Of a stretch of 64,000 bases of DNA, positions 2,656 to 6,162 are shown in pieces. The stretch comes from Fimbriimonadaceae bacterium (GTDB lineage Bacteria; Armatimonadota; Fimbriimonadia; Fimbriimonadales; Fimbriimonadaceae). Numbering within the stretch: the stretch's first letter is position 1; each line of letters opens with the position of its first letter. The notes below the pieces were generated by a model, which saw nothing but the letters and a program-made list of their open reading frames with translations, ran no database searches and had not been told where the DNA came from. Position numbers and translations under genes: made by a program. The DNA is taken from positions 310,001-374,000 of the forward strand of contig JAHCHO010000001.1 in NCBI GenBank assembly GCA_026129685.1, written 5' to 3'.

Positions 2656-3834
2656 ATGGGACTCAATAAGAAGACCGTCCGCGACCTCGACGTGACCGGT
2701 AAGCGCGTCCTCGTGCGCTGCGATTTCAACGTGCCTCTTGACGGAAGCACCATCACCGACGACCGCCGCATCACCGAAGCCCTCCCGACCATCCGGGACC
2801 TCGCCGCCCGCGGCGCCATCGTGATCCTTGCCAGCCACCTCGGTCGCCCCAAGGGCTGCCCCGAGCCCAAGTACTCCCTCGCCCCTGTCGCCGCCCGCCT
2901 CACCGAGTTGCTCGGCAAGAGGGTGCCCCTCCTCCCCGACTGCGTCGGCCCCGAGGTCGCTTCGGCCATCCAGGCCGCCAAGCCCGGCGACATCCTCCTG
3001 CTCGAGAACGTCCGGTTCTACAAGGAGGAGGAGGCGAACGACCCCGATTTCGCCAAGCAGCTCGCCGCGAACGCCGACCTGTACGTGAACGACGCCTTCG
3101 GCACCGCCCACCGCGCCCACGCCTCGACCGAAGGGGTCGCCCACCTGCTCCCCGGCGCGGCGGGCTACCTAATGGAGAAGGAGATCGAGTACCTGGGCCG
3201 CGCCGTCACCGACCCCGCCCGCCCCTTCGTGGCGATCCTCGGCGGCGCGAAGGTCAAGGACAAGATCGCCGTCATCGAGAACCTCCTCGCCAAAGTGGAC
3301 ACCCTCGTCATCGGCGGCGGCATGGCCTTCACCTTCCTCAAAGCCAAGGGCTACGAGATCGGCAAGTCGCTCCTCGACGAGACCAACCTGGAGTTCGCCA
3401 AGAAGACCCTCGCCGCCCATGGCACCAAAATCCTCCTGCCCGTGGACGCCGTCGTGGCTCCTGAACTGAGTCCCGACGCCCCGGCCGAGACCGTCGCGGC
3501 GGACAAGATTCCTGCCGGCGAGATCGGGGCGGACATCGGCCCCGCGACGATCGCCCTATTCACCGACGCGATCCGCTCCGCCAAGACGGTGGTCTGGAAC
3601 GGCCCGATGGGCGTGTTCGAGATGGCGAACTTCGCGGAAGGCACCCGCGCCGTCGCCGAAGCCCTCGCCGACTGCGCGGGCACCACCATCGTCGGCGGCG
3701 GCGACTCGGCGGCGGCGATCGAGAAGTTCGGCTACGCCAAGAAGGTCAGCCACGTCAGCACCGGCGGCGGAGCGAGCCTGGAGTTCCTCGAAGGCATCGA
3801 ACTGCCCGGCATCGCGGCGTTGCAGGACGCATAG
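2656..3834 (+). CDS. pgk: Phosphoglycerate kinase
   Basis: Cytosolic glycolytic enzyme that transfers phosphate from 1,3-bisphosphoglycerate to ADP. The 392-residue protein has the family N-terminal signature [14 protein letters not shown] near residue 18, the [10 protein letters not shown] substrate-binding block, [13 protein letters not shown], the GGAKVKDKI block at the start of the nucleotide lobe, and the C-terminal glycine-rich GGGDSAAA segment. The start is the ATG at 2656; the frame stays open far upstream, but that extension is Pro/Arg-rich and lies antisense to the divergent esterase gene. A TACACT at 2585-2590 could serve as its -10, leaving a leader of about 60 bases. No gap, tpi or eno gene is adjacent. 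Confidence 0.98.
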
Positions 3835-3951: not shown

Positions 3952-3981
3952 TTGGCATCGCCCCCCCCCCCACGCTAGGCT
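3952..3981 (+). promoter_or_regulatory. Promoter with an 11-C homopolymer in the spacer
   Basis: TTGGCA at 3952-3957 (one mismatch to TTGACA) and TAGGCT at 3976-3981 are separated by 18 bases, of which eleven are consecutive C residues (3961-3971). TAGGCT ends six bases before the GTG start at 3988, so transcription would begin at or next to the start codon. A change in C-tract length would change promoter spacing, as in known phase-variable promoters. Confidence 0.55.
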
Positions 3982-3987
3982 ACGGAC

Positions 3988-5166
3988 GTGAGCAACCGAC
4001 TGGTTCGTTTCACGATGGGCGCGCTGGCATTCCTGATCCTGGCGGGAAGTGCGATGTGTCAGGAAGAGGATCCGCCCGAACCGCTTCCGCCTCCCGGCAC
4101 GATCTGGCGAGACTACGGCCAGGTGCGGGTGATCCTGTCCGTCTCGAATCCCGCCATCCAGGAACCCGATCTGGGGAAGGTGAGCGGCACGAACGTGCGC
4201 TTCGGTCTTCTCGCCGCCGTCACTCAGCGGCCCATGCCCTACACGATCGAAAACCCCGCCACCGCGCCCACCCGGGGGGCAGGTCGTCCACTTCTGGTGT
4301 ACGATCGGCAATGGGTTGATCTCGACCGCGCCCGTGTTACCGAGCGACGAGGTGTCGTTGGGCGTTCGGCTCGATTCGACCCGCTTCGCCCCGCGATCCG
4401 CGATCACGATCTATCTGGCGGCGGAGTTCCGGCTCGACACCCCCTCGGGACCCCAGTGGCGGACCGAGTACGTCCAAACCGGCGTGGAGGCCTACAACGT
4501 GGCGGCTTTGTTCGGCTTTGCCGAATTCGAGGCGGTCAAGGCCAGCAGGGCGCCCTGACCGCCAAGGAGTGGATGGCCGCCCTCCATCACGACGACTTCT
4601 GCTTCACCTATCCCACGTGGAACGCGAACACCGTGCTCCAGCACGTCGGGTCGGTCACCGTCTTCTACGAGAACTGCCACGGCGCGACGGGTCTGTTCCA
4701 CGACAATGGCTACCCGGAACCGGGATCGGAGATCGACGCGCTGGCCCTCGGCCCGCCGCGCCAATCGGGCGTCTCGGCGGGAATTCCGCCCATGCACTTC
4801 GCCTTCATGGACTCGTGCGAGTCGGTGGCGGACCACGGCTACCCACCGGAGTTCTTCGCCCAGTTCGGTCGAAGCCTGCTCTACCCCTACCTACCCGCCG
4901 AGGCGCTGGAGGGGCGCGCGCTCCTGGGCTGGGCCATCCAGGCCGACGTCAACAAGACCGCCGACATCGGCAACGTGCTCTGGGGCGCTCTGGCGGGAAA
5001 GGCAACGGTGAGTCAGGCGCGCACAGCCGCGTGCCTCCAGGTGTATCCAACGCTAGACCCCACCTTAACGATGTTCGTCGTCGGTGACCCAAACACGCGG
5101 TTGCACGGCGTCTACACGGGTCACCCATGGCTACCAACGATCGAGGACTGGTACACATGGCTCTAA
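3988..5166 (+). CDS. Exported protein, possible clan-CD (caspase-like) cysteine peptidase; carries two compensating frame disturbances
   Basis: The frame of 392 codons starts at GTG 3988 with a signal peptide (MSNRLVRFTMGALAFLILAG, cleavage near AMC-QEE). Between about 4274 and 4547 this frame reads as arginine-rich shadow sequence, while the +1 frame reads a normal protein (GQVVHFWCTIGNG onward to FGFAEFEAVKAS). The simplest reading is one extra G in the run GGGGGG at 4274-4279 and one missing base just after 4546, which cancel out. Downstream, VTVFYENCHGATG (His231) and MHFAFMDSCES (Cys277) resemble the strand-HG and strand-DxC blocks of clan-CD peptidases; this is my inference, not a family match. 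The start of the next gene overlaps its stop as TAATG. It could equally be a non-enzymatic exported protein. Confidence 0.65.
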   Translation: MSNRLVRFTMGALAFLILAGSAMCQEEDPPEPLPPPGTIWRDYGQVRVILSVSNPAIQEPDLGKVSGTNVRFGLLAAVTQRPMPYTIENPATAPTRGAGRPLLVYDRQWVDLDRARVTERRGVVGRSARFDPLRPAIRDHDLSGGGVPARHPLGTPVADRVRPNRRGGLQRGGFVRLCRIRGGQGQQGALTAKEWMAALHHDDFCFTYPTWNANTVLQHVGSVTVFYENCHGATGLFHDNGYPEPGSEIDALALGPPRQSGVSAGIPPMHFAFMDSCESVADHGYPPEFFAQFGRSLLYPYLPAEALEGRALLGWAIQADVNKTADIGNVLWGALAGKATVSQARTAACLQVYPTLDPTLTMFVVGDPNTRLHGVYTGHPWLPTIEDWYTWL

Positions 5167-5984
5167 TGAGTAAACGGCGTCTGGTTGCGTGCGGCCTTGG
5201 GGGCATCCTGGTGCTGGTAGCCGTTACTTGGCTGCAAGTGGCGGTGGCCGGACCTGCCAAACCGGCAGCGAAGGAGGTTGCGGTGGCGTTTCTGCGTCAG
5301 ATCGGAGCGTACAAGGCGGGCTTTGAGTGGACCGAGCGGGCAGGCGGAAGCTCCGGTCGTAGGGTGTATCAGCTAGTTCCCGGCTCCCGACATGCCGGAT
5401 CGGCGCCGATGATCGTGGTGGACCAGAACGAAGGCATAGTGGTCGGGTACGTCGCCCAACCCGACTACGATGGCCGGAGCCTTGCCGCCGCGCCAGAAGA
5501 CGCACAGCGATGGCGAACGCGCCTCGGCCTACCGAAGGACTGGCGACGCCTCGACGTCTCCGACGGCTATCGCCTAAGGGGCGGCAAATCCACTGCCTTT
5601 CGCCTCGCCGAGTTCCCCTACGGCTACGAGCCGTTCGAAGAAAGCGACGGCGCGTTGATCGGACTGGACTCCTCCACAAGACTGGTGGTCTACTCCCGCG
5701 CCGTCGGCTATCGCGCCCTGCCCCCTCCCGACAAGCTCCTTTCCGTCGCCGACGGCCTTCGGATCGTCGCCAAGAAGCGAACCGACCCGAAGCACGAGGT
5801 CCGCTTCCACAAAACGATGTACGTCGTTCCCAACGACCGTTTCGGCGGACAACGACGCAAGAACCCCAAGGAGTTGGTCCTCGCCCGCGTGTACAAGCTC
5901 TCCGACCGCAAATACCTGTTCCTCGACGCGGGCGACGGCAAGGTCCTCGGCGGGTTCGAGGTCAGTCGGCGGCGGAGTCCGTGA
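5166..5984 (+). CDS. Exported protein of unknown function
   Basis: 272 residues starting at the ATG that overlaps the upstream stop codon (TAATG at 5164-5168), so translation is probably coupled. MSKRRLVACGLGGILVLVAV and the following hydrophobic stretch form a signal peptide or N-terminal anchor. The body has two similar segments in which a strand ends in a D-x-G turn (IVVDQNEGIVVGYV and LFLDAGDGKVLGGF), a pattern seen in PepSY/YcdB-like domains that block or bind peptidases. Given the peptidase-like gene just upstream this is an attractive but unproven link. Two earlier in-frame ATGs at 5127 and 5157 exist but would overlap the upstream gene more heavily. Confidence 0.75.
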   Translation: MSKRRLVACGLGGILVLVAVTWLQVAVAGPAKPAAKEVAVAFLRQIGAYKAGFEWTERAGGSSGRRVYQLVPGSRHAGSAPMIVVDQNEGIVVGYVAQPDYDGRSLAAAPEDAQRWRTRLGLPKDWRRLDVSDGYRLRGGKSTAFRLAEFPYGYEPFEESDGALIGLDSSTRLVVYSRAVGYRALPPPDKLLSVADGLRIVAKKRTDPKHEVRFHKTMYVVPNDRFGGQRRKNPKELVLARVYKLSDRKYLFLDAGDGKVLGGFEVSRRRSP

Positions 5985-6162
5985 CCGCCGAACGCAACCG
6001 CGACCGGATCAGCCGCTCCCGGTGGTCGTTGAACAGGCAGATCGCCCGCACCCCCAGCACGTTCGCCACGTTCACCGCCTCCTCGTAGTGTTGCGGGTTC
6101 ACCTTCCGGTCCTTGCACCGGCGCTCGGTTTCGTCGTATCGGGGGCAGTCGCGGCAGTACAC
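5962..6162 (-). CDS. Small Cys-containing protein of unknown function
   Basis: 66 residues. The N-terminus MYCRDCPRYDETERRCKD has a CxxC plus a third Cys, suggesting a metal or redox site; the middle (YEEAVNVANVLGVRAICLF) looks like an ordinary helix-strand. The start is GTG at 6162, preceded at the right distance by GAGG on this strand. Its 3' end overlaps the convergent exported-protein gene by 23 bases. It has no signal peptide, so it is probably cytosolic. Composition looks like real protein rather than shadow. Confidence 0.65.
   Translation of the reverse strand: MYCRDCPRYDETERRCKDRKVNPQHYEEAVNVANVLGVRAICLFNDHRERLIRSRLRSAVTDSAAD

Follow-up and report, generated by a model that had tools for sequence, protein, structure and literature searches.

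We found that a run of eleven C residues (C11), located between -35-like and -10-like hexamers just upstream of a gene for a predicted exported protein, is probably the slippage switch of a phase-variable sigma-70-type promoter in a Fimbriimonadaceae bacterium. From sequence comparison, we base this reading on the promoter architecture, the excess of long runs in the host genome, the class of leaderless -10 elements to which the promoter belongs, a promoter copy on contig C3 with nine C residues (C9) and 18-nt spacing, the enrichment of repeats in the gene's family, and the differing repeats across genera. With slightly less confidence, we consider it likely that this His/Cys family of exported proteins, together with a PepSY-like partner, has been under lasting selection for phase variation across the order, with unrelated repeat switches gained. 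Under such selection, the switches would comprise C, G, A and T runs as well as tetra-, penta-, hepta- and octamers, located within the spacer of the promoter, on the upstream side of the -35 or among the codons of the signal peptide.

Promoter architecture

The window, by which we mean the whole 64,000-nucleotide stretch of DNA analysed, contains C11 as its sole C/G run of at least 8, and no known RNA elements were found within it. The candidate promoter lies between pgk (2656–3834, with a match to Pfam PGK) and a 392-codon open frame, and reads in full order TTGGCA-TCG-C11-ACGC-TAGGCT-ACGGAC-GTG. When we re-read the sequence, the positions that the initial annotation had given for the -35, C11, -10 and GTG, as well as its 18-base spacer, were all correct. 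The promoter features are:

3952–3957, + strand: putative -35 hexamer TTGGCA, a 5/6 match to TTGACA; CTGACA stands at the homologous site of the C3 copy, and perfect TTGACA is likewise placed in other family members
3961–3971, + strand: C11 tract in the 18-nt spacer, the proposed slippage switch
3976–3981, + strand: -10 hexamer TAGGCT; TAGRCT is enriched 12–13 nt before start codons genome-wide
3988–3990, + strand: GTG start codon, 6 nt past the -10, and leaderless transcription start predicted from sequence

The exported His/Cys protein family

We found the family by protein search, first using the C-terminal part of the window protein and afterwards a profile built from 13 relatives; members were detected in 27 of the order's 113 genomes, and two species of the same genus gave weak matches only. 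Family proteins combine a signal peptide with an N-terminal part bearing SGTN and FDSTHF motifs and a C-terminal part in which alignment of 13 sequences revealed an invariant His, mostly as His-Gly, and a downstream invariant Cys. Export is predicted from the hydrophobic signal sequences of the window protein and its paralogs; these and the invariant residues agree with the earlier description of the product as exported and carrying peptidase-like residues. The His/Cys pattern fits that of clan CD cysteine peptidases (legumain, caspase, gingipain type), which likewise combine an invariant His with a downstream invariant Cys; the window family differs in that its sequence matches none of the known families significantly, and "peptidase-like" is thus offered as a lead rather than as membership. 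Searches of Pfam and NCBIfam gave no match to the window protein family, nor did defence-system models, and the best match of the profile to the PDB was legumain, at a weak E value of 0.046. Single-sequence structure prediction of the C-terminal part was unusable (pLDDT 31).

Repeats at the starts of family members

Homopolymers mark the starts of all family members scanned in the host genome: C11 in the window, C9 at C1:410k, G7 at C3:43k, G12 at C1:213k, C9 at C12:202k and G7 at C16:133k. Elsewhere in the genus we found C9, C9 and G7 in one genome (G001) and G9 in another (G002). Other genera carried G/C runs (G9, G9 and G7 in G009; G12 in G025; G8, G9 and G8 in G065; G11 in G111; C15 in G016), A9 and T9 (G034) or T9 (G079), G13 along with octamer and heptamer repeats (G027), and short tandem repeats, namely (TCGGT)x6 with G8 (G078), (TCAGGGC)x6 (G106) and (CTTT)x7 (G013). 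In many members, mono- to octanucleotide repeats fall within the codons of the signal peptide, and a slip there disrupts the reading frame. The initial annotation had named a single tract length in all relatives as evidence against switching; what we found instead, in a comparison that reaches to distant members, were homopolymers of 7 to 15 and repeats that differed in kind.

In tests run after the pattern had been noticed, with heuristic gene starts, relatives that are not independent and controls from the same genome, the effect was very large. A C/G run of at least 7 occurred at the start of 6 of 6 scanned members in the host genome, compared with 24 of 1085 control genes (P 2.6e-10), where the six include the C16:133k member (L307), whose G7 is just beyond the extrapolated interval and ∼12 nt before its GTG, and exclude a 56-residue fragment on C15 that is without a repeat. 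Across all 49 scored members, 29 repeats fell in the 10.8 kb near starts versus 7 in the other 76 kb (P 3e-32); by eye, several of these seven are close to the real start. A repeat was present within -120 to +100 of the profile-extrapolated start in 28 of the 49, and the 21 members without one by the criteria used count against the model.

The placement of the tracts is also informative. Of the family homopolymers, 14 of 29 lay between TTGACA-like and TANNNT-like hexamers, compared with 4 of 232 other C/G runs (P 3.4e-12); several of the 14 were accompanied by perfect TTGACA, and spacers ranged from 14 to 19, plus one poor case at 23. These 14 tracts, together with the 5' repeats in most family members, support the original reading of the window tract as a poly-C promoter spacer. 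In L050 (about 1501, - strand) of the host genome and in L340:254 of another species of the genus, the order is instead C9-TTGACT-N17-TANNNT, and the tract abuts the -35 on its upstream side.

Leaderless promoters and the role of the -35

It is well supported that leaderless promoters are common in the host genome and that TAGGCT-ACGGAC-GTG is a typical example. The motif TANNNT peaks 12 and 13 nt before start codons, with 64 and 49 occurrences versus ∼13 per offset elsewhere, and TAGRCT was counted 15 times at offsets 12–13 and 0–3 times at any other offset. We saw no -35 consensus upstream of the 113 leaderless -10 sites of the host genome, which favor a G two bases before the -10. Spacing may consequently matter less here than in E. 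coli, a point against the switch model. Given this lack of a general -35 consensus, TTGGCA alone would be weak, and spacer length would make no difference to a promoter that lacks a -35, which, taken alone, weakens the case made by the initial annotation.

These same features would be in keeping with an extended -10 promoter that ignores the -35, in which the tract would be hypermutable without switching the window gene, spacer length being of little effect. We regard this as unlikely, even though it is the best placed of the alternatives: it would not account for the perfect TTGACA that directly precedes the tract in several members of the family, nor for the -35-like hexamer and spacing kept by the C3 copy. 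It is this copy, with CTGACA at the same 18-nt spacing, and the likewise placed TTGACA of relatives that rescue TTGGCA as a probable -35.

We also considered a genome-wide regulon with one fixed poly-C architecture and rejected it, as the combination of poly-C, TAGRCT and leaderless start occurred only at the window locus and the C3 remnant among the 113 genomes of the order.

The window gene, its partner and their copies

The genes downstream of the promoter comprise the following features:

3988–5166, + strand: exported protein gene, with a signal peptide, an N-terminal SGTN / FDSTHF-type part and a C-terminal His/Cys part
4678–4680 and 4816–4818, + strand: His codon and Cys codon, respectively, within the exported protein gene
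4274–4550, + strand: stretch out of the ancestral frame between two compensating frameshifts, seen as a GC3 frame switch; its frame-2 translation matches relatives
5127–5984, + strand: partner gene, exported, PepSY-like; the true start is perhaps 5157
3953–6150, + strand: two-gene unit; contigs C3 and C10 of the host genome hold decayed copies of it with internal deletions

A similar partner gene follows several relatives of the window gene, one of them with a PepSY match below Pfam's cut-off. The copies of the unit are at C3:29659-30163 and C10:5985-6181 (L037, L040). By DNA search, the promoter of the C3 copy reads CTGACA-ACG-C9-ACGAGC-TAGACT-6 nt-GTG; it aligns without gaps to that of the window across the tract, C9 versus C11, with a spacer of 18 in both. 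That two homologous promoters differ in tract yet keep their spacing, as if it were held constant, argues against the model. Neither a search with the N-terminal part nor one of public genome contigs found close orthologs, and gene order downstream of pgk is not conserved in G002.

The window gene carries two frameshifts, which also weigh against the model: one at ∼4274, at or near a G6 run, and a second at ∼4535–4555. They may have damaged the product of this copy, and may reflect decay, a change that is tolerated or an error of assembly. The C16:133k paralog likewise breaks frame. The family switch could thus be real while the window copy is a decaying pseudogene with a remnant tract, a scenario compatible with the promoter-switch reading, and one for which the C16 frame break, the two frameshifts, the decayed C3 and C10 copies and the weak profile matches in the two same-genus species could all be cited. 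Yet the frameshifts compensate each other and leave no stop, so that only the middle part is garbled, the His/Cys part stays in frame with high GC3, and the promoter parts are intact; it is improbable that the switch is without effect for this reason.

Long C/G runs in the host genome

The host genome (3.94 Mb, 18 contigs, 99% complete), which its closest pgk relatives place in Armatimonadota, was surveyed for C/G runs using 1.66 Mb of its stretches and whole-genome pattern counts. Since a plain dinucleotide shuffle over-predicts long C/G runs, the run lengths themselves served as the chance baseline. In the 1.66 Mb there were 663 runs of six, 94 of seven, 13 of eight, 5 of nine, 3 of ten, 2 of eleven and 1 of thirteen, so that counts dropped ∼sevenfold per extra base from 6 to 8 and then more slowly. 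Genome-wide, 38 runs of at least 9 were found versus ∼5 expected, an over-representation of about eight times in a list that omits one 25-base run at the extreme end of a contig, and 21 of at least 11 versus ∼0.1 expected by geometric extrapolation. Long runs were also closer to gene starts (19 of 30 runs of at least 9 with full flanks versus 59 of 247 six-base runs; P 2e-5), partly since they avoid gene interiors. Contigs C5, C10, C11 and C14 start or finish in or near poly-C/G runs, and the assembly may break at long runs, some of which could be sequencing artefacts.

A chance or neutral intergenic homopolymer, or one of misassembled length, would be in keeping with the location of long C/G runs mostly outside gene interiors and with the contigs that end in poly-C/G, but is very improbable given the long-run excess and the family-specific enrichment over same-genome controls. 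Lost mismatch repair was ruled out as the source of the tract excess, as MutS and MutL are both encoded in the genome; slippage therefore need not be fast, a point against the model.

Other repeat-bearing genes in the host genome

Tracts were also observed at genes outside the family. Two exported-protein starts, L065 (1454–2686) and L038 (about 1500, - strand), share 94% identity across the 181 bases that surround the start. In both, a G run directly follows the signal peptide: G12, in frame, in L065 and G10, out of frame, in L038. Distant L065 homologs in another species (L136, L153; 35–37% identity) have G10 at the matching place, and L138, a homolog in another genus, has C11 after a lipoprotein-like signal. 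In L033, L049 and L056 (each about 1501), C11, C10 and C9, respectively, part a start or signal-like N-terminus from the downstream open frame, like off-state genes. Finally, C/G runs of 9–13 lie near upstream of genes for signal-sequence proteins in L045, L046, L057, L062 and L066. This group thus likely has a set of exported proteins subject to phase variation.

Proposed mechanism and comparison with known systems

In the phase-variation model, replication slippage would add or remove C residues in C11 and thereby shift the distance between TTGGCA and TAGGCT from the present 18, and a leaderless mRNA starting at ∼3988 would be transcribed more or less. This mRNA would encode the exported peptidase-like protein, presumably located at the cell surface, and probably its PepSY-like partner. 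The assembled state of 18 nt is predicted to be on or intermediate, while 17 nt (C10) would be strongest and tracts of C8 or shorter, or of C13 or longer, would be weak or off. Switching of this kind might be selected as, for example, an escape from phage, predators or competitors.

The mechanism itself is known from other bacteria, and what is new to it here would be the gene family and the phylum. In the promoter of opc (opcA) in Neisseria meningitidis, as summarized in PMC3447861, which cites Sarkari (1994), the poly-C count sets expression, and C11 and C12 differ. Like the window locus, opc has about 11 C residues in a row within a promoter that serves a surface protein gene, surface location being our prediction for the window product; the two differ in phylum and in their unrelated products, and in the leaderless mRNA of the window gene, for which the effect of tract length is predicted. 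In Bordetella pertussis, the length of the promoter C-stretch of fim2, fim3 and fimX alters transcription of surface protein genes (PMC1891110). In the fim promoters the run sets the distance between an activator site and the -10, whereas that of the window is flanked by -35- and -10-like hexamers; the C9 tracts just upstream of TTGACT in L050 and L340 are nearer to the fim layout. Contingency loci with coding repeats, such as the poly-G genes of Campylobacter and those of Neisseria and Haemophilus, are matched by the family members with frame-breaking signal-peptide repeats, in contrast to the window gene, whose repeat sits in the promoter.

Implications

Repeat-driven phase variation has been studied almost entirely in host-associated pathogens. 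Armatimonadota are mostly known from uncultured genomes, and it is there that repeats mark this exported family; in the literature searched, we found no paper joining Armatimonadetes or Armatimonadota with phase variation. The natural promoters of the family, whose spacers range from 14 to 19 and whose -35 is often identical, offer a ready series for tests of spacing versus output. If lasting selection has indeed acted as proposed, the family would form the core of a phase-variable gene set in a phylum for which that literature describes none. Cells seemingly gain from switching this family at random, a hint, perhaps, of pressure from phages, predators or competitors.
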